From a virus, in the IMG/VR virus record IMGVR_UViG_3300042898_005599, positions 1 through 26,324 of that record: DNA of 26,324 bases. One strand, given 5' to 3'. The notes beneath the pieces were generated by a model. It did not search any database and was not told the DNA's origin. It was given only the letters and a program-made list of their open reading frames with translations. Each line of letters begins with the position of its first letter. Position 1 is the stretch's first letter. A program made the position numbers and the translations under genes. Below, in pieces: positions 2,976 to 16,315 of this stretch.

Positions 2976-3452
2976 TCACCCTAACATCGCGTTGAACCCG
3001 ATATACGCGCTCTCCAGAGTCTCGTACACCTCAACCTCCGCGCCATTCTTGACTGCCACCCATTCACTGCCGTGCCAAGTTCTTTCAGTGAATCGTTGCC
3101 ATAACTCACAATTTGATGCCTGCTCAATGACTGTCCAATGCCCCTGTGAGGGTTGCTCTACCCTCGTTGGTATTACCACAGGCGCGGGCTTTGCTACAAC
3201 GCTGACGCCCCGCCTCACGACGCTTGGTGCCATTCTTTGTGCGCGCTCTCGCTCGTTTAGCCCGCCCCAAATTCCGCTGTCCTCGTCCAACCCTGCAAGG
3301 AAACATTCGTCAACGACAACGCATCCACCACAGACCGCTTTGGCTTTTGCTTCACGCCTTTTACGGTCGCCATACTTCTCGCCCTCCACGGGAAAGAACA
3401 GAGCAGTCTCACTGGATTTGCAGTTTGCTTCTTCTTGCCAGTTTTTCACCAC
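2976..3452 (-). CDS. WhiB-family iron-sulfur transcription factor with C-terminal extension
   Basis: Residues 5-70 are a WhiB domain. WQEEANC gives Cys11, and CGGC plus DEC give Cys41, Cys44 and Cys50, the four ligands of the [4Fe-4S] cluster. SGIWGGLNERER (59-70) is the conserved G(V/I)WGG turn, with a basic/polar stretch after it. The family is confined to actinobacteria and their phages. A phage WhiB from mycobacteriophage TM4 is known to interfere with a host WhiB and cause superinfection exclusion. Residues about 90-158 form an extra segment with HWTVIEQASNCELWQRF that is not part of a standard WhiB protein. The start must be GTG 3452 or 3449, because an in-frame stop lies one codon upstream; no good Shine-Dalgarno is seen. 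The gene sits 25 bases after the glutaminase gene. Confidence 0.93.
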   Translation of the reverse strand: MVKNWQEEANCKSSETALFFPVEGEKYGDRKRREAKAKAVCGGCVVVDECFLAGLDEDSGIWGGLNERERAQRMAPSVVRRGVSVVAKPAPVVIPTRVEQPSQGHWTVIEQASNCELWQRFTERTWHGSEWVAVKNGAEVEVYETLESAYIGFNAMLG

Positions 3453-3477: not shown

Positions 3478-4239
3478 TTAAACAAAAAGTTCGCGCGTGA
3501 CCCCAAGATGTTTCATCGTCATCAAGTCCACCATCTCAACAACGCGACCATTGAGCACCTGCATGTAGCGGTACTCTGGCACGCTCCACGATGACCGCAA
3601 AACCAAACCAGCATCAGCCACCGCCTTGCGAAGCGAGTTTTCAGTAGAAGCAAACACAAATGAATCGTTCTGTGTCCACCCGACTACTAACGGAGAACCC
3701 GTCACGCGCGCCACATGCAATACATCAGGCTTGTCGGTACGAATCCAGCCAAGAGAAGCCCTGCCTTGTAGCGAGGTTAATTCTTCCAATGGCTCATCAC
3801 TCAGACTCAGCAAATGAAATATCGCTTCCGAATCCACTTCACCAACGCGAGGTGCCCCGTAGTACTCAATGATTTCATCATCATTAGCAATGTGACCGTT
3901 GTGAACACCCACGATAGTTGGAATAACAATCGGGTGATTGTTGTCGTTATTGTTGGGGCTACCTTTGGTCGCGTACCGCGTATGCAGAATGGCAGTGCCA
4001 CAAGTGTTGGGGATGTCTGACAGATGCTCCACAAACTCCCGTGCTGTGATGTCATCCTTCATGTAGAACAACGCATCTTCAGACTTGCCGTGTTCGTCAG
4101 TGGCGCTATCTGCCCACGCCACGCCTGTCGCGTCAGTGCCCCTGTTCATAATTTCCAGCAACAATCTTTTAGTAAGAGTCCTGCTTTTGTGAAGCCCTTT
4201 GTCTGCTTCCGATAATGAGAATCCTGCTATGCCACACAT
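3478..4239 (-). CDS. Stand-alone class II glutamine amidotransferase (Ntn hydrolase)
   Basis: A 253-residue protein beginning MCGIAGF, so Cys2 becomes the N-terminal nucleophile after Met removal. Family motifs follow in order: NRGTDATG (32-39), HTRYATKG (86-93), VHNGHIAN (112-119) and VDSEAIFHLL (135-144). These are the glutamine-binding and oxyanion-hole elements known from GlmS, PurF and asparagine synthetase. The domain hydrolyses glutamine to glutamate and ammonia. No synthetase domain follows, so the ammonia must go to a separate partner. The obvious candidate is the amidoligase encoded one base upstream in the same unit. AGGGG lies nine bases before the ATG. The length matches an isolated glutaminase domain, and no active-site residue appears to be missing. 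Confidence 0.92.
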   Translation of the reverse strand: MCGIAGFSLSEADKGLHKSRTLTKRLLLEIMNRGTDATGVAWADSATDEHGKSEDALFYMKDDITAREFVEHLSDIPNTCGTAILHTRYATKGSPNNNDNNHPIVIPTIVGVHNGHIANDDEIIEYYGAPRVGEVDSEAIFHLLSLSDEPLEELTSLQGRASLGWIRTDKPDVLHVARVTGSPLVVGWTQNDSFVFASTENSLRKAVADAGLVLRSSWSVPEYRYMQVLNGRVVEMVDLMTMKHLGVTRELFV

Positions 4240-4240
4240 T

Positions 4241-5293
4241 TTATCGTGCCCCTATTTCTGTTTTACGCCGACTTAAATAGTCTGCTGATTGTTTGCGGAT
4301 AAGTCTTTTAGTTTGAAGGACTGACAACACCTCATCGGCGTCGGTCATGCCCAACATTGGAGTCATTGACGCGCTTAGTTCAAATAGACCAAGCAGGTAA
4401 TGAATCCAGTGCACTATCTTTGAGCCGTTCAATGTGCCCTGATGAAGTCTGACTTCAAAAGTTCCTATCTTGCTGAATGGCTTAATGTTGAGGCTCATCA
4501 TTTTGTCTGCTGTTGATGTTGAGGTTCCGCGTAGCATCATTGTGCTGTACTCGTTAATGGTGCTCGCGCTCATGTGTCGCGAGTACATTCCGTTCCGTCT
4601 GCTCGGTGCCACGAAACCTTGGTTAATTTCTTGTAGCGCACCCCAGTTTGTGACGATTGATGCCCGTTGCATTTTGGAAAGATGAGCCACACCGATGTGA
4701 ACATGAAGCCCACAAGTTACATCAGCAGTTCCACCCAAGGCTGAAATTTCTTTGACGATGGCTCGTATCTCTGGCATTTTTTCAACTGTCAAGATTGGTG
4801 AGACAACCTCGCCACCGCGACCGTAAATGTCACCGCGTCGTTGCGATACTGAAGAATCCTCTTCAATTTTCCACTGGTTGTAAGTAGCGCCGTCTGCGAT
4901 TGTCTCGTGGCAGGTCATACAAGTTTTACCGTGGTAGGGGAACAGGTGGACATGGTACCCAAGCAATCTGGTTAGAGCGACCGCGACTTCTGCGCGTTGA
5001 GTGTTTTTGAATTCAATCTCAATACCGAATGTCCATTGACCGACTGTGCCAAGCCCTTCGTTTCGTCGTGCCTGCCAAGTTCTCAGCGCAACCTCGCGAC
5101 CAGCAAGAAGTCTCCGCTCCGATGGTGGCGCTACTAGGGAAGGCAAACCGTTTCGTTGCGCGTATCGTTGAGCCTGAGCGCGAACCGTTGATTGGCTCTG
5201 GCTTGCTTCAAGTGCAATCGCTTGCCATGTCCATCCCGCGCGCCTGCGCTCATAAGACACCATTTCGTTTTCACGATTATTACTTACTGGCAT
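4241..5293 (-). CDS. Amidoligase (COOH-NH2 ligase fold) with N-terminal HTH
   Basis: A 350-residue protein with two parts. Residues about 12-50 look like a helix-turn-helix (YERRRAGWTWQAIA, then STVRAQAQRYAQRNG). From residue 87 the signature of the putative amidoligase family appears: TFGIEIEF (88-95), KIEEDSSVSQ (142-151), GGEVVSPIL (160-168) and CGLHVHIG (194-201). FEVRLHQGTLNG comes later. This fold is related to glutamine synthetase and is predicted to use ATP and a carboxylate to form amide or peptide bonds. A CMTCHE motif (Cys125, Cys128, His129) lies in the loop before the EEDSS box and may bind metal. The ATG has AGGGGGC three bases upstream and a promoter at 5317-5345. The neighbouring class II glutaminase can supply ammonia. 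The substrate is unknown: peptidoglycan, protein or DNA base are all open. Confidence 0.85.
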   Translation of the reverse strand: MPVSNNRENEMVSYERRRAGWTWQAIALEASQSQSTVRAQAQRYAQRNGLPSLVAPPSERRLLAGREVALRTWQARRNEGLGTVGQWTFGIEIEFKNTQRAEVAVALTRLLGYHVHLFPYHGKTCMTCHETIADGATYNQWKIEEDSSVSQRRGDIYGRGGEVVSPILTVEKMPEIRAIVKEISALGGTADVTCGLHVHIGVAHLSKMQRASIVTNWGALQEINQGFVAPSRRNGMYSRHMSASTINEYSTMMLRGTSTSTADKMMSLNIKPFSKIGTFEVRLHQGTLNGSKIVHWIHYLLGLFELSASMTPMLGMTDADEVLSVLQTKRLIRKQSADYLSRRKTEIGAR

Positions 5294-8997: not shown

Positions 8998-9780
8998 TTA
9001 AAAAGGTTCGTCGGTGGGGTCAGCGAAAATTTCCCGCTGTGGATTTTGGTTTGGTTTCATTGCAATCAAATCACCGATAAAAGCAGAAGCGTCCTTGCCT
9101 GACAAATCAGACAAAGCAGACACTTTGCGACCGAGCAACTCAGAAGCCATAGCCATAGGGTCTAGCACACCCTTGTCTGCAATCATCTTGCGAATCAAAG
9201 TCATCTGCTTCTCCGAAGGTGGATACTTCTGGGTGCTTGCCGTCGGAGCAACCTTCGTTGCCACAGGCACTTCACTCAAGCCTTCAAAAGCATCTCTGAG
9301 GTAGTCCTCATCCTCACCCGCGCCACGAACAGGAGCCTGACGAGTCGCTGAAGCCTTCCTCACTGGAGCATCAGACCAATCGCCACCGCGCTCGGCTTCC
9401 CCCTTTTGCCAAAGCGCCAAACAAACGCCGAAACGCATACTGGCATTCCTCAAAAAGTCGCCGATAATTTCCTTTTCGTATTCAGGCTTATCTGCTCTAA
9501 CCGAACCGACACCAATCATGGATTTGCCATGAATCGTCATGCGTCCCCACATTGTTGCCATGCCATTCTCCACATGAATCATTGGACGACCGTCGCGAAT
9601 CTCCAACGGCTCCCACGACCACAAAGGGTCAACCTGAATCAAAATTTCCGTGATGGCACCGTGCCCTACAAAGGACAAAGTAACTCCACCCTTGGGCAAC
9701 TTGCCCACAATCTTCGGGTCTGGAGTGCGATACTTCTCCAAAACTTCCCGCAACAATTCTGCTGTTATCTCATCCATCAT
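8998..9780 (-). CDS. Single-strand DNA annealing protein (Rad52/Sak/Erf-like)
   Basis: A 260-residue protein. The N-terminal half carries the pattern of phage annealing recombinases: GVTLSFVGHGAITEILIQVD (32-51), PLWSWEPLEIRDG, a strand TMWGRMTIHGKSMIGVGSV, and IGDFLRNASMRFGVCLALWQ KGE. These proteins pair complementary single strands made by a partner exonuclease. The neighbouring YqaJ-type gene is that partner, and the two reading frames overlap. The middle is a disordered Ala/Pro-rich linker. The C-terminal part (about 185-260; PPSEKQMTLIRKMIADKGVL) is a small helical tail often found on such proteins. GGAG precedes the ATG by four bases; a second ATG follows directly. The exact superfamily (Rad52/Sak versus Erf) cannot be fixed by eye. 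Confidence 0.8.
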   Translation of the reverse strand: MMDEITAELLREVLEKYRTPDPKIVGKLPKGGVTLSFVGHGAITEILIQVDPLWSWEPLEIRDGRPMIHVENGMATMWGRMTIHGKSMIGVGSVRADKPEYEKEIIGDFLRNASMRFGVCLALWQKGEAERGGDWSDAPVRKASATRQAPVRGAGEDEDYLRDAFEGLSEVPVATKVAPTASTQKYPPSEKQMTLIRKMIADKGVLDPMAMASELLGRKVSALSDLSGKDASAFIGDLIAMKPNQNPQREIFADPTDEPF

Positions 9781-10724
9781 TATTCTCCCTTTGTTTCTTT
9801 CATCAAACGCATCGTCCGATACGGCGCGCCCTTTTTCATATACTCGGCAACCAAATCAGGGTGCTCCGTCTTTAGCCTTTTAGTGTCCAAAGATTCTCTG
9901 CCCATAGTCTGCTTCCACGAGACAACACTTTGCCCGTTGATAGTACCAACCTCAGCATCTTTCAATAACCGCGCTAACGCATCCTTCGCCTGCTTTTCCT
10001 GACCTTCTGCCACAGAGCGAGCCTCCCGCGCGATATCTAAACTAGCAATCCACAGACGAGCCTCCTCATCCAATTCAACAGTGCCCTTTACTTCTGTGTA
10101 CGCCCGCGAAATGTCATCGGCGCTCATCTCGTTAATGAGGTGTTCCAACCCGCGCTGAGAATCCACAACTTCGCCAAACAACTCAGACTCTTCTACTAGC
10201 CTTTCTAAAGCGCCATCCATCTGAGGTAACTCCACGAGAGAAAACACTTGACGGCGGTCTAAGACAACAAAGAACACGGGGCAACCAGTCACCAACTGTT
10301 GTGCCCAACCCTGCCAACGCCATTCCATTGGCAAATCACTTGACTCATCTACTGAGTAACGAGCAGTAGTTTTTGCTTCAACGACAACCGTAGGTGCCAA
10401 AGCATCATCAACTCCATCAGCAGAGATAACAAAGCGACCGCCTTGGTACTGCCATTCTGGAGTAACTAAATCAATGCCCATCTCTTCAGAAGCAAACTGC
10501 AAACACGCTGGTTCCAGAAGGTTCCCTCTACGCATCGCTGGGCTTGTCTCGCGAATGACTGGCATTTCCATCTTGTCAAAATACAAATCGGCGCGTGAGC
10601 GGTACGGCGAAGTCCCCATCATCACAGGAGCATCTGAAGCCCCGAACACTGCACGACCATCAACTTTCCAACGCTGATTCAGCCATTCAAGAGAGCCGTG
10701 AGTTGGTTTTGGTAATAATTTCAT
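9780..10724 (-). CDS. YqaJ-type viral exonuclease (lambda Exo-like)
   Basis: About 314 residues. Motifs of the PD-(D/E)XK nuclease family YqaJ appear in order: FGASDAPVMMGTSPY (28-41), MRRGNLLEPACLQF (65-78), FVISADGVDD (99-108) and VVVEAKTT (114-121). Asp104, Glu117 and Lys119 are the likely metal-binding and catalytic residues, with Glu72 in the GNLLEP box (numbering from ATG 10727). It would resect double-stranded ends 5' to 3' for the annealing protein encoded next. Of the two adjacent ATGs, 10724 is listed because GGGG is five bases away from it but only two from 10727. The C-terminal region from about 215 is helical and charged. This is the first gene after the promoter at 10794-10822. 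Confidence 0.88.
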   Translation of the reverse strand: MKLLPKPTHGSLEWLNQRWKVDGRAVFGASDAPVMMGTSPYRSRADLYFDKMEMPVIRETSPAMRRGNLLEPACLQFASEEMGIDLVTPEWQYQGGRFVISADGVDDALAPTVVVEAKTTARYSVDESSDLPMEWRWQGWAQQLVTGCPVFFVVLDRRQVFSLVELPQMDGALERLVEESELFGEVVDSQRGLEHLINEMSADDISRAYTEVKGTVELDEEARLWIASLDIAREARSVAEGQEKQAKDALARLLKDAEVGTINGQSVVSWKQTMGRESLDTKRLKTEHPDLVAEYMKKGAPYRTMRLMKETKGE

Positions 10725-10739
10725 CATGTCCCCATTCTG

Positions 10740-10793: not shown

Positions 10794-10822
10794 ACTGTAC
10801 CTAGTTAAAGGCGCTCTGTCAA
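10794..10822 (-). promoter_or_regulatory. Predicted sigma70-like promoter of the recombination/replication operon
   Basis: On the minus strand TTGACA (10822-10817) is followed after 17 bases by TACAGT (10799-10794). The -35 lies in the last codons of the proteasome-like gene. The implied leader to the exonuclease start is about 60 bases and contains the palindrome at 10740-10757. Confidence 0.58.
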
Positions 10823-11425
10823 GTTTTTAGTTTGAACAAACAAAACATACGGCGAACCCGTGTACGCATCAAAGGTAGAAGCACTGGCAAGACCCTTCAT
10901 CAGGCATTTCTTTGCCGAATCCACAGTGAACTTGCGAGGTCGCGTAGCCTGCATCGCCCCCAACGCGTATTGCGCGCCAGAACCAACAGCGTAAATACCG
11001 TCATCATCCGACGCCCACGAGTAATCCCCGTCAACTATGTACACGACAGCGTTGACCACAACCACCACCGTGGAATCGTGCTCTGCCACATGCGAACCTT
11101 TCGCGCTATCTGGGCGAGAATAACCGTGCTCTTCAAAGCAAGCGCGTAAAGCAGGAACAAACTTAACCGTAATAAAACGGTCTAACGCTGTCCCATCCAA
11201 ACTAGGAAAAGGCTTCGGCGGGGCAAACGCATGATGCAACAGGTTAATTGCGCGAACATCTCCAGCCGCGGCAAGCAGGTACCGTCCGACTTCCGCGACC
11301 TTGGACGAACCTTCCCTCATCGTTGACCGTTGAGAAGCAAAACCAGACTCGTCAATGGTGCTCAAACGCGAGTCAACACCGACAACGGCAAACCCGTCAC
11401 CCTGAATAGCCACAATCGTTGTCAT
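10805..11425 (-). CDS. Proteasome-beta/HslV-like Ntn hydrolase
   Basis: A 206-residue protein starting MTTIVAIQGDGFAVVGVDSR. After removal of Met the first residue is Thr, and Asp falls exactly at mature position 17, as in proteasome beta subunits and HslV (TTIV...D17). A hydrophobic strand and turn YLLAAAGDVRAI (49-60) and the YAVGSGAQYALGAMQA block (145-160) match the serine/glycine loop and helix of the fold. The usual Lys33 may be Lys42 here, in a longer loop. No propeptide is encoded, so activation would need only methionine removal, as in HslV. It would be an ATP-independent or host-ATPase-assisted protease; no AAA partner gene is visible. The ATG overlaps the metallophosphoesterase stop. 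A head-maturation protease role is unlikely this far from any head genes. Confidence 0.82.
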   Translation of the reverse strand: MTTIVAIQGDGFAVVGVDSRLSTIDESGFASQRSTMREGSSKVAEVGRYLLAAAGDVRAINLLHHAFAPPKPFPSLDGTALDRFITVKFVPALRACFEEHGYSRPDSAKGSHVAEHDSTVVVVVNAVVYIVDGDYSWASDDDGIYAVGSGAQYALGAMQATRPRKFTVDSAKKCLMKGLASASTFDAYTGSPYVLFVQTKNLTERL

Positions 11426-12645
11426 AGCACCGCTAAGTCAGCCCAACCCAAATCAGCATGAGTGCCAACAGTAAAAGTTAAAGTACCGCGCCTAGACCAC
11501 AAACCAGACCTGTCTGTCCACCATTTAGAACCACCGTCTAAAGTAGGGCACTGAATACGGGTGTAAGCACCAAAATCAGCAACAGACAAATGATGGCGAT
11601 GAGCAGTAACCCACAAATCAGGCTCTCTGCCTTCCTCGCGCAAAATCCGAATACTCTGACCCCTTATCCAATCAGCCTCTTTTGCAGGGGAAGGAATGGT
11701 ATGCCCGTGCGTAAAAGCGACATTGACGCCCGACAGAACGCTTGTAATCGTCATCTCGTCATGTGGAATTGACCACTTAATGTGTTGCAACTCGTCACGG
11801 TCAGCGAGGATTCTCTGCAACGCCTCAGCCAAAAACGCGCCAGCATTATCCGAATCACTTGTAATGGACTTCTGCCCTCTACGCATCCACTCGCCATGAT
11901 TGCACAAGACCGACAAAAACTCTGCATTTTCAGCAAGCACAGCCCACCGACCAACAGCCTGCGTCCACAAATCCAAAGCCAACAACAACTGCTGACGCTG
12001 ATTCAACTCAACAGTAAAAGTCTGCGACGCGTAATGGTCGCCACAACCCTCAATCGGGTCGCCCATATTGGCAATCACAATGTTCTCAATGTTCCGCCCC
12101 ATCTTGCGAAGGTCAGCAACGCGCGTAATCACATCATTAAAAGATTTGATGACATACGCGACAGTCGCATCAACGCCACCGCCAGCCGACTTGCCTAATT
12201 GCCAGTCCGCCAAACACACAACAAAAGTGCAAGGAACAGCATCAGAAACCTGCTTTTTGGGCGCTGAAGGACGCCATTTAGCCACGCCCTGCCGTATCGC
12301 ATCAATATCCTCGTCAGATATAACATTGCTTTGCCGACGGCGAAACCGCGCGCGATACGAGAACAACCAAATCAAATCTCTGTCGCCATTTTCAAGACGC
12401 TTAGATGACTGCCACTTGGAACACCGAACGGTGTCGTCCACAACCTCAAAAACATTTGGGTCTAAGTTAAACCCAAGCAAAATGGAATCCCAGTTGCCGT
12501 CTAACTCAACTGACAACTGCCCAGTAGAAATCTCACCACCATCAGAGGTAATTTCTACCCACGCTTTTTCTTTGTCTGGCACCGACTCAGATGCCGACGA
12601 ATCAAAATCATCCTTAAAGCCCACAACGACACCTGCCTTGTACAT
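11422..12645 (-). CDS. Calcineurin-like metallophosphoesterase
   Basis: About 407 residues. Metallophosphoesterase motifs occur in order: CLADWQLGK (the D-x-H motif, here with Gln), NMGDPIEGCGDH, LCNHGEWMRRG, FTHGHTIPSP and TAHRHHLSVADFG, then a conserved-looking QCPTLDGGSKWW tail. The first motif has Gln in place of the usual His. The family hydrolyses phosphomonoesters or diesters with two metals. In actinophages such a protein commonly follows a small HTH protein, as here; its role there is unknown. The N-terminal 130 residues are a separate unrecognised region. The start is uncertain: TTG/ATG-type starts up to 12672 overlap the HTH gene by up to 59 bases. ATG 12645 is listed; GTG 12624 with GGCAGG seven bases upstream is an alternative. 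Confidence 0.82.
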   Translation of the reverse strand: MYKAGVVVGFKDDFDSSASESVPDKEKAWVEITSDGGEISTGQLSVELDGNWDSILLGFNLDPNVFEVVDDTVRCSKWQSSKRLENGDRDLIWLFSYRARFRRRQSNVISDEDIDAIRQGVAKWRPSAPKKQVSDAVPCTFVVCLADWQLGKSAGGGVDATVAYVIKSFNDVITRVADLRKMGRNIENIVIANMGDPIEGCGDHYASQTFTVELNQRQQLLLALDLWTQAVGRWAVLAENAEFLSVLCNHGEWMRRGQKSITSDSDNAGAFLAEALQRILADRDELQHIKWSIPHDEMTITSVLSGVNVAFTHGHTIPSPAKEADWIRGQSIRILREEGREPDLWVTAHRHHLSVADFGAYTRIQCPTLDGGSKWWTDRSGLWSRRGTLTFTVGTHADLGWADLAVL

Positions 12646-12847
12646 GACGACGAACTGTGTCCTCCGACACAATGTAGCCGTTGTTTTTCAAAACAGTTGA
12701 CACAGTGGAAGAACTAAAATGACCTGACTCCAAGGCGTTAAGAAATTCGCCCCTGTCCAAGTCGCTCATAGCGTCAATCGTCTGCCCCATTAAACATTTG
12801 CTTTTACGGCTTTCATTAGCCGCCATCAAATCGTCAAGTAACCCCAT
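12614..12847 (-). CDS. Small helix-turn-helix protein, 77 aa
   Basis: The N-terminus MGLLDDLMAANES is followed by a helical core, SDLDRGEFLNALESGHFSSS then TVSTVLKNNGYIVSEDTVRRHVQGRC. This reads as a helix-turn-helix with recognition helix SEDTVRRHVQG. Small proteins of this shape stand directly before a metallophosphoesterase gene in actinophages. GGAGG lies five bases before the ATG, an excellent Shine-Dalgarno. The two cysteines at the C-terminus (CRCGL) are a minor feature of the type. A DNA-binding role is likely; the target is not known. Confidence 0.8.
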   Translation of the reverse strand: MGLLDDLMAANESRKSKCLMGQTIDAMSDLDRGEFLNALESGHFSSSTVSTVLKNNGYIVSEDTVRRHVQGRCRCGL

Positions 12848-14234: not shown

Positions 14235-15977
14235 CTACTTGACTTTCTTGCCCCCGCCAGAACTAGCCGTCGGCGAGATAGCCCCCGACACAGCCCCAAC
14301 CATGCCCGAAACAGCCACCAAAGCACGGCGCGTCCCGACATCCACAAACGACCCAGCAGGCACATACTCGTCCAACCCCTCCGAATACACATTCACCGAA
14401 TCCTCAAAAACATCCTTAATCTCGTCAGGCTGTCCTGACAAAACCGTGACCAAAAGCAACTCCTCAGCAGGCGACAAGTCCTCAACCACCAACGCATCAA
14501 AAATCGCCTCAGCCTGTGTCTCCGAGACAACATCCAAAACATCCTCACTCAACGCCAAAACCAACGACTCATCCGCAGACAAACCCAACTCCACAATCGC
14601 CTCAACAGCGCCACTTATCTGCTCATCCGTAACATCATCCCCCGCCAAAGAATCCACCAAACTCTCAAACTGCACATCCGACAAAGGCTCCGCAAGCACA
14701 GCATCCAACACGGCGGTAAACGCATCGTCCGAAAGAGGCTCATCAAAAATCGCTTCCAACACCGAATCAAAGGCTTTATCCGACAAAGGCTCATCAAAAA
14801 TAGCCTCCAACACCGCGTCCAACTTAGTTTCGTCAAGCAACCCAATATCGGCAAACACAGATTCAGAAGCCACCGCCAACTCCTCATCAGACAAATCCGA
14901 CGAAAAAGCACCATCAATAACCTCAGCGAACTGGCTGTCAGACAAATCCGAACCCACCACAGCCGACAAAACCGCGCTTATCTCCTGCGGAGTTTCCACC
15001 GCGTCAACCAAATCCGTCACAGCATCAATCACTAACGCATCGCCCCCACCAGCATCAATAATCACCGCAACCTCATTGTCTGCTTCTTCCTGCATCTGCG
15101 GGGTTGGCTCTGTAATAACAGGCTCAATAACCGCTTCCTGCTCAGGCACGGCGATATCCACACTTGGCAAATCAGGCAGTGCTACGGTCGTATCGTCGGT
15201 AATAGTAATCGGCGGTAAAGTGATGGAGGTCACAGATGTTGTTGTACTGGATGGTGATATCGGCTCTAGTGCTGGCTCTGTTGTGTCTGGCTCAGGGAAA
15301 TAAAAAACCGTAGAAGTCGTCGTAGATGATGAACTGGAAGAGGTAGTCGTCGTTGACGCATCCGTCGTCGTAGAAGAAACTTGTACAGGAACTTGTACAA
15401 CTGTCGTCGTCGTAGAACTGCTCGTAGAAGTGCTAGTCGTAACCGCGCTCTCCTGCGTCGTAAAAGCCCCATCAGGAACAATCGTCAACTGACCCCCATC
15501 CAAAGACCACGCCAACATATAACAACTGTTCCCACCCCTTTCATACATCCAAGAATCAAAAGACACAGGCACCCCGCTCGGTAAAGACACCGACTCCGTG
15601 TTACTCCACGAACAACCCGTATCAAACCACCACTCCTCAGCAATCGCATCCCCTACGCTAAGAGTCGCCCCGTCGTCATGCGCCAACCAAAACTGCACCG
15701 TCTCATGCTCTGGAACCGTAATAAAACCCGAATAATGCAACAAAAACAAATCATCAGGGCACTGCTGGAACGGCTCATAATCAAAGTTCCGATTGATATT
15801 ATTCTCAATCTCCGAACCACACGACGGGTACAAATCCGAACTCCGCACAGGAATCTCGTCGTCAAAAACATAACCGACCGCTTCTAAACCCTGCACCCCA
15901 CTGGCATCAGCAGGTACAGAAAACAAAAACAAAACAATCGCGGGCAAAGCCACAATCCAACGGCTACGCATCGCCAT
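14235..15977 (-). CDS. Exported PA14-like protein with Ser/Thr linker, 17-residue repeats and C-terminal anchor
   Basis: About 580 residues in five parts. A signal peptide (RSRWIVALPAIVLFLFSVPADA, cut near residue 26) leads. A PA14-like beta domain follows (about 35-170; VGYVFDD..., FLLHYSGFITVPEHETVQFW, LAHDDGATLSVGD), with four cysteines (54, 74, 123, 153) that could form two disulfides outside the cell. Then come a low-complexity Ser/Thr linker (about 178-260), an acidic helical region with about ten degenerate 17-residue repeats (335-515), and a C-terminal hydrophobic segment ALVAVSGMVGAVSGA followed by GGGKKVK. This is the plan of a type I surface protein. PA14 domains often bind carbohydrate. 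It lies between fibre and lysis genes. The ATG overlaps the upstream stop as TGATG and has a weak Shine-Dalgarno; an ATG six bases later is possible. Confidence 0.75.
   Translation of the reverse strand: MAMRSRWIVALPAIVLFLFSVPADASGVQGLEAVGYVFDDEIPVRSSDLYPSCGSEIENNINRNFDYEPFQQCPDDLFLLHYSGFITVPEHETVQFWLAHDDGATLSVGDAIAEEWWFDTGCSWSNTESVSLPSGVPVSFDSWMYERGGNSCYMLAWSLDGGQLTIVPDGAFTTQESAVTTSTSTSSSTTTTVVQVPVQVSSTTTDASTTTTSSSSSSTTTSTVFYFPEPDTTEPALEPISPSSTTTSVTSITLPPITITDDTTVALPDLPSVDIAVPEQEAVIEPVITEPTPQMQEEADNEVAVIIDAGGGDALVIDAVTDLVDAVETPQEISAVLSAVVGSDLSDSQFAEVIDGAFSSDLSDEELAVASESVFADIGLLDETKLDAVLEAIFDEPLSDKAFDSVLEAIFDEPLSDDAFTAVLDAVLAEPLSDVQFESLVDSLAGDDVTDEQISGAVEAIVELGLSADESLVLALSEDVLDVVSETQAEAIFDALVVEDLSPAEELLLVTVLSGQPDEIKDVFEDSVNVYSEGLDEYVPAGSFVDVGTRRALVAVSGMVGAVSGAISPTASSGGGKKVK
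14436..14978 (-). repeat. Coding tandem repeats, 17-residue (51-base) unit
   Basis: The encoded protein repeats a 17-residue unit of the form (D/S)AVLEAIFDEPLSDxAF about ten times with decay. The two best copies, DAVLEAIFDEPLSDKAF and DSVLEAIFDEPLSDDAF, are adjacent and differ at two positions; outer copies keep only the LSD/ILSA helix pattern. This indicates expansion by internal duplication followed by drift. Confidence 0.75.
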
Positions 15978-16315
15978 CAATCATGCACAAAAAGCCAATC
16001 GTCTCGCTCGCCATCCCACCTATACATTTTCCCATCAGCAGGCATTGCATGCGGAGGTTCCCAAACATTATTTACTAAAACCCATGATTCAAAAGGCTTT
16101 GGAGACAAGTAGTTTACACCATCATAGAAATCACCCATATGCACATTGAGCGCGTCATTGTCGCCCACAAACACATACATATCAGAATCATCTAGCAGAT
16201 TGATGAACTCTTCTTCAGCAACAATTAGATTTTCAACGATATTTTCGCTATTTAACTTTGCCCAAACATTATTGCTTGGTTCTCTATCTATTGGGAATAA
16301 TTCAATGTTAGACAT
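15977..16315 (-). CDS. Fibre-associated hypothetical protein, 112 aa
   Basis: Contains ENIVENLIVAEEEFINLL, then DGVNYLSPKPFESWVLVNN and W-rich PP..MPADGKMYRWDG. This pattern (an NIVENVIVA strand, then Y...P.P..SW, then P..G..Y.WDE) is common in small proteins beside tail fibres of aquatic phages. They may act as fibre chaperones or minor virion proteins. The ATG lies eight bases inside the glycine-rich fibre gene, with AGG five bases upstream. The stop overlaps the PA14-protein ATG. Confidence 0.65.
   Translation of the reverse strand: MSNIELFPIDREPSNNVWAKLNSENIVENLIVAEEEFINLLDDSDMYVFVGDNDALNVHMGDFYDGVNYLSPKPFESWVLVNNVWEPPHAMPADGKMYRWDGERDDWLFVHD

Follow-up and report, generated by a model that had tools for sequence, protein, structure and literature searches.

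A proteasome-like Ntn hydrolase gene often coupled to a metallophosphoesterase gene in a clade of phages with probable actinobacterial hosts

The protease gene and its locus

The window, meaning the whole 26,324-nucleotide stretch of IMG/VR record IMGVR_UViG_3300042898_005599 that was analyzed, derives from a freshwater phage, very probably with an actinobacterial host. It encodes a proteasome-like Ntn hydrolase, referred to below as the window protease. An earlier note on this DNA had located the reading frame at 10805-11425 without giving a strand; the plus strand of that interval is broken by stops, and the protease frame lies on the minus strand only. The genes that define the locus are as follows:

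10805..11425, minus strand: proteasome-like Ntn hydrolase, 206 aa (profile matches, catalytic residues, AF2 model)
11422..12672, minus strand: calcineurin-like metallophosphoesterase (phrog_284; PHROG E 1e-49), upstream of the protease gene, its stop overlapping the protease start (ATGA)
12614..12847, minus strand: small HTH-like ORF, 77 aa, upstream of the phosphoesterase gene and recurring at the same place in relatives
9780..10727, minus strand: RecE-like/YqaJ exonuclease, immediately downstream of the protease gene (PHROG/Pfam-type profile matches)
8998..9780, minus strand: single-strand annealing protein (profile match)
2976..3452, minus strand: WhiB-like regulator, a marker of actinobacterial hosts (profile match)

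The placement between a metallophosphoesterase gene and recombination genes, already described in that note, was recovered, the latter being the RecE and single-strand-annealing genes, and the protease cassette directly follows the lysis genes. At the junction (ctATGAcaacg), the protease start and the stop of the phosphoesterase gene share nucleotides. A scan for Sigma70-like promoters gave no more matches than were found in shuffled sequences. Elsewhere in the window, positions 14235-15980, between the tail and lysis genes, encode a 581-residue secreted-looking protein with a Ser/Thr-rich stretch and AIFDEPLSD-type repeats.

The window protease begins MTTIVAIQGDG, with Thr2 directly after Met1. 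It has no propeptide, the reading frame being open for just four codons upstream of Met1, and the mature enzyme is expected to begin at Thr2 once Met1 has been removed. The MTTIV start, the Asp at mature position 17, the GSGAQYALGAMQA block (residues 148-160) and the missing propeptide, from which the family had originally been recognized, were all confirmed in the sequence. Between the window protease and that of L007, its nearest divergent relative, dN is 0.049 and dS 0.86 (dN/dS ∼0.06), and this low dN relative to dS indicates that the protease is under strong purifying selection.

A complete proteasome-type active site

Conservation was assessed in 155 IMG/VR locus sequences, some of which are the same contig taken twice. 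Proteasome residue numbers follow PMC8665760 and general knowledge. The codons of the catalytic residues, with the predicted pore loop discussed below, map as follows:

11420..11422, minus strand: Thr2 (catalytic Thr1 of the proteasome), invariant in 155/155
11372..11374, minus strand: Asp18 (proteasome Asp17), invariant in 155/155
11300..11302, minus strand: Lys42 (proteasome Lys33), invariant in 155/155
11261..11263, minus strand: Gly55 (oxyanion Gly47), in the clade motif AAGDVRAIN; Gly in 155/155
10868..10870, minus strand: Asp186 (proteasome Asp166), invariant in 155/155
11072..11125, minus strand: predicted pore loop G101-S118 (AF2 model and alignment)

Thr2, Asp18 and Lys42 are also unchanged in four further sequences; for Thr2 and Asp18, this answers the conservation check that the earlier note had proposed. 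The spacing between the Asp17 and Lys33 equivalents contains 8 extra residues. Ser149 aligns with proteasome Ser129, and Thr189 replaces proteasome Ser169, a threonine that is itself invariant at this position in the 155 locus sequences.

Profile matches and predicted fold

Profile searches further support assignment to the proteasome/HslV-like N-terminal-threonine hydrolases, an assignment for which catalytic residues, fold and tree also speak. The PHROG profile phrog_1040 ('peptidase HslV family') matches the window protease over its full length (E 6e-20), Pfam PF00227 (Proteasome) scores 30.2 bits against a cut-off of 22.4 while covering the C-terminal half only, and the closest PDB sequence match, again full length, is the BPH of Thiobacillus (5ovs, E 8e-5). 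No unrelated fold came out best. The NCBIfam equivalogs for HslV lie far below their cut-offs (28.2 bits vs 137 and 26.3 vs 157.75), as does that for the archaeal beta subunit.

The weakest NCBIfam match is the bacterial 20S beta subunit (TIGR03690), at 13.9 bits against a cut-off of 191.9, compared with 26-29 bits for HslV and archaeal beta. This score lends no support to the suggestion that the enzyme replaces the host beta subunit, and neither does its grouping with AAH-like homologs on the HslV/BPH side, where the solved members are double rings free of alpha subunits.

A structural model of the monomer was generated with AF2 from an alignment of 64 window-clade sequences (pLDDT 87.3, pTM 0.85). 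Foldseek with this model returned BPH (5ovs/5ovt) first, with E 2e-11 and TM 0.70. VIA-align gave Z of 19-20 both for BPH and for beta subunits, and superposed model residue 2 on residue 1 of 5ovt. The nearest predicted viral structure is an uncultured-phage protein already called HslV. The model thus supports a proteasome/BPH fold and membership in the Ntn threonine hydrolase family; it contains helices at both 57-66 and 78-99. The predicted pore loop spans 17-19 residues and is net negative in 64/64 aligned members, with a mean net charge of -2.5. In the model it resembles the loop of BPH, which has a long acidic pore loop and no known unfoldase, rather than that of HslV, which is very short (PMC8665760).

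A separate phage clade

Phage-borne proteasome homologs, namely PPH and AAH, are already known (Fuchs 2021). One pattern scan of IMG/VR recovered 504 relatives of the window protease, and the 155 locus sequences together with 4 from GenBank phages formed 43 clusters at 90% identity. In a tree of 50 proteins, which holds no CPH sequence, the window protease forms a clade with those of Actinomycetia phage DSL-LC01, Arthrobacter phage Hum25, Microbacterium phage Pumpernickel and Caudovirales ct2KA10 (support 99/97). An AAH-like branch (95/80) joins Rhizobium and Streptomyces plasmid proteins with Moorella, Geobacillus, Psychrobacter, Vibrio and T5-like phage proteins, and BPH (86/90) and HslV (100/99) each group apart from the window clade. 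Removal of the longest branches left the split between the window clade and the AAH-like branch in place (97/97 and 99/97), with BPH at 91/96. A grouping of the clade with just the five AAH-like plasmid proteins, named after the tree had been seen, was disfavored by the AU test (p 0.026).

Within the AAH-like group, Ser or Thr stands in place of Gly47 in 12 of 15 sequences and Asp166 is retained in 2 of 15, so that, of the two, it is the actinophage clade that has the full proteasome-type site. Membership in AAH proper was rejected on tree and motifs; the AAH-like label of the plasmid proteins is itself inferred from taxonomy (alphaproteobacterial and actinobacterial, cf. Fuchs 2021) and not from the reference WP_035979212. 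Membership in BPH was likewise rejected, as BPH groups separately. A bacterial genomic origin was also considered and rejected: narrow patterns run over 84,980 species genomes found one relative (L166), on a 21-kb contig of a Gammaproteobacteria MAG that is probably a mis-binned virus. Of the remaining matches from 398 Pseudomonadota genomes, those inspected proved to be HslV and BPH, and a BPH query against plasmids gave no match. The window protease is therefore known in kind, as a phage proteasome homolog; in the literature consulted, the clade, its full active site and its coupling to a phosphoesterase have no earlier description.

Several homologs differ in sequence or setting. Some carry Lys/Arg-rich C-terminal tails of 20-40 residues with net charge +5 to +13 (L082 12001-12690, L203 4001-4660, L069, L073, L079, L098); these might bind nucleic acid, and the window protease is tail-free. 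AAH-like genes occur on rhizobial megaplasmids (L169, L170), once near nifHD, and on a Streptomyces plasmid (L168) beside a helicase, a PD-T4-6/mads_6-like protein and a DEDDh exonuclease, a setting that resembles a defence island.

Genomic neighborhood and host

The metallophosphoesterase is the recurrent partner of the protease. It lies within ∼700 nt upstream in 22 of 43 clusters, and in 11 of those 22 its stop and the protease start overlap or are at most 10 nt apart (ATGA, GTGA, TAATG). Two phosphoesterase families take part, phrog_284 in the window and L107 and phrog_20266 in the others, and parsimony requires at least 8 changes in the pairing on a partly resolved tree. A phosphatase gene also adjoins the distant homolog of an Ochrobactrum phage. 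The pairing reflects common ancestry as well as function.

WhiB regulators are confined to Actinobacteria and their phages (PMC6802176, PMC10202952, PMC10611076). A WhiB gene is present in 33 of the 40 records with the protease gene, as opposed to 1 of 14 control genomes (C. glutamicum), which indicates that the hosts are probably Actinobacteria. It lies within ∼1.1 kb downstream of the protease gene in 14 of the 40.

ThyX was considered as a partner of the whole clade and rejected. Its gene lies within 4 kb of the protease gene in 10/40 records (G013, G017, G021-G023, G027, G035, G036, G038, G039) and 8/39 window-clade clusters, 2.6-4 kb upstream in one sub-lineage, and overlaps the protease gene in Pumpernickel. 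Neither the window nor most phosphoesterase-linked members have it, which makes it a lineage feature rather than a general partner. Other distant homologs sit among nucleotide-metabolism and replication genes, and phage and plasmid proteasome homologs from unrelated genomes repeatedly lie a few kb from ThyX or ThyA with DHFR, RNR or MazG genes nearby (L084, L172, L204, L205, L206, L208).

Proposed role

The reading we favor, to which we give about even chances, is that the gene encodes an active, self-compartmentalizing group-I (HslV/BPH-side) Ntn-threonine peptidase that works independently of an ATPase in the early/middle programme and removes particular host or early phage proteins. It builds on the complete set of catalytic residues, the fold, the missing propeptide, purifying selection, the separate clade and the phosphoesterase coupling. 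Host methionine aminopeptidase would remove Met1 and expose the catalytic threonine, and the subunits would assemble, like those of HslV and BPH, into a stacked double ring without alpha subunits. The acidic, BPH-like pore loop of 17-19 residues may limit entry to the chamber, so that the ring would cut unfolded proteins and peptides with no dedicated ATPase. Judging by its neighbors, the protease would be co-produced with the phosphoesterase in the early/middle programme and not as a head-maturation enzyme, its most likely job being the removal of particular host or early phage proteins during takeover. The position of the cassette directly after the lysis genes in the window counts against this timing.

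Less probable is that the protein forms the proteolytic chamber of an ATP-dependent machine, fed by a host unfoldase (ClpX, ClpC or Mpa) or, in some relatives, by a phage Cdc48-like AAA. 20S core particles and HslV operate with AAA rings, and to our knowledge HslU is not expected in Actinobacteria. The earlier note saw no AAA unfoldase gene; this holds for the window, a 26-kb fragment in which neither AAA_2 nor AAA gave a match, and for its sister contig (G033; 40,646 bp, matching the window at 97.6% in the cassette and at 93.3% in the tail genes), but not for all relatives. A strong classical Cdc48/VAT-like AAA of ∼530-560 aa occurs in 8/40 records (L213-L220), always ∼8-10 kb upstream of the protease gene and on the same strand, so some lineages may have a cognate unfoldase. 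The Bacillus plasmid pBP1 carries a related AAA (L221 8503-10176; 31% identity over 344 aa) together with DUF1257 and DUF2997 genes, 2.8 kb upstream of a gene for an AAH-like homolog. Against this reading, no strong Cdc48-like AAA is present in 32/40 records, the window and its sister among them, and the eight that have it are probably one related lineage. Among the 40 records, which are fragments, AAA_2 (HslU/ClpX-like) exceeds its cut-off in 4, leaving 36/40 with no match above it, the window and its sister included. The same Cdc48-like type occurs in 124 GenBank phage records, the majority of them not recovered in the protease searches, which makes the co-occurrence weak evidence; moreover, no HbYX motif is present at the C-termini of these AAAs. 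No AAA partner was found for the new proteasome homologs by Fuchs 2021 either.

An extension of the ATPase-independent peptidase reading is more speculative still, and we offer it as a doubtful proposal: a proteasome-like chamber evolved by actinophages, its translation coupled to that of a metallophosphoesterase and its gene often preceding WhiB, would constitute a host-takeover module that removes specific host regulators, separate from the host Clp and 20S systems.

A role in head maturation, in which the enzyme trims scaffold or virion-delivered proteins, appears improbable. Portal and scaffold-like genes directly follow the protease gene in 6 of 37 clusters, so the earlier statement of a position away from head genes is true of the window and fails for these relatives; in four portal-adjacent records searched (G006, G011, G014, G018), neither S78 nor XkdF was found. 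However, S78 prohead protease is present in 13/40 records, none of them portal-adjacent, and S78 and XkdF together account for 14/40, including the sister contig. There the head module starts ∼24 kb or more from the protease gene. It encodes, ∼31 kb from the Ntn gene, a protein in which an XkdF-like protease (PF14550, 43-47 bits) is joined to a zeta-toxin domain. The distribution of S78 and the XkdF of the sister contig argue that the Ntn enzyme is not a general prohead protease, although it may have that role in the portal-adjacent lineage, and they disfavor the earlier proposal that it processes a phage protein in that capacity. Its usual neighbors are instead phosphoesterase, WhiB, HTH or recombination genes. 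SPP1-type portals, moreover, often accompany protease-free heads.

The sister contig also encodes seven large ORFs between MuF and a scaffold-like gene (L210 482-12177), each with a near-identical ∼24-residue motif, KASFASRSEAARYAASIRWKGN; one of the seven also has the XkdF and zeta-toxin domains and one has DUF6321. The motif may serve to target virion-delivered proteins to the capsid or to mark them for cleavage; tblastn of it against phages gave no match.

Still harder to sustain is a specialized non-protease function, as a connectase-like ligase or an amidohydrolase. Connectase is a precedent for the conversion of this fold into a monomeric ligase (PMC8665760), and the window itself contains a class-II glutamine amidotransferase gene adjoining an Amidoligase_2 gene (3478-5293), but the model lacks connectase-type inserted helices, Asp166 and Gly47 are retained, and Amidoligase_2 occurs in only 2/40 related records, a count on which the idea of an amidoligase/glutamine-amidotransferase tag-and-degrade link was also rejected. 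Least credible of all is the idea that the protein counters host defence or acts as a poison by competing or co-assembling with the 20S proteasome of the host: host proteasome genes go up during infection by Rhodococcus phage WC1 (PMC10986025), so proteolysis by the host may be relevant to infection, but profiles and phylogeny put the protease away from bacterial 20S beta subunits and PADLOC gave no match among the window proteins.

Phage proteasome homologs were catalogued in 2021 with neither a function, a telling gene context nor actinophage AAH members. With hundreds of viral contigs, a complete active site and a recurrent gene partner, the window clade makes the purpose of a phage proteasome testable. 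If the ATPase-free activity proposed here is real, it would bear on the proposal that chambers of the proteasome type first arose as peptidases needing no ATP.

Comparison with known systems

AAH and the window clade are both group-I proteasome-like proteins of ∼180-230 aa with no propeptide and with Thr1, Asp17 and Lys33, both are found in phages, and Arg58 is common to the window protease and the AAH-like sequences compared. AAH-like proteins differ in their MTCIVGL start (MT(C/V)IVGL), their FTSSFRMG motif, Ser for Gly47 and the lack of Asp166; the window clade lacks these motifs and has instead AAGDVRAIN, Gly47, Asp166 and Thr169. PPH is likewise phage-borne, compact and an Ntn threonine enzyme, but measures ∼140 aa and lacks helix 2, whereas the 206-residue window protease has both helices in its model.

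BPH is the best Foldseek match, at 23-24% identity, and shares the long acidic pore loop and the lack of a known unfoldase. Unlike the window protease, it is cellular, forms a separate clade, lacks Arg58 and, between Asp17 and Lys33, has ∼4 extra residues as against 8. HslV (ClpQ), whose name PHROGs and GenBank annotators use, shares group I, Thr1, Lys33 and the GSG block; in contrast to it, the window clade keeps Asp166 and a long pore loop, and the window protease scores far below the HslV cut-offs. Actinobacterial PrcB has the same fold and catalytic residues, but the window protease lacks a propeptide and matches the PrcB model most weakly of all. For AAH, no actinobacteria-specific phage carrying one was found (Fuchs 2021); the window clade, though not AAH by the tests made, fills the gap neighboring these missing actinophages.
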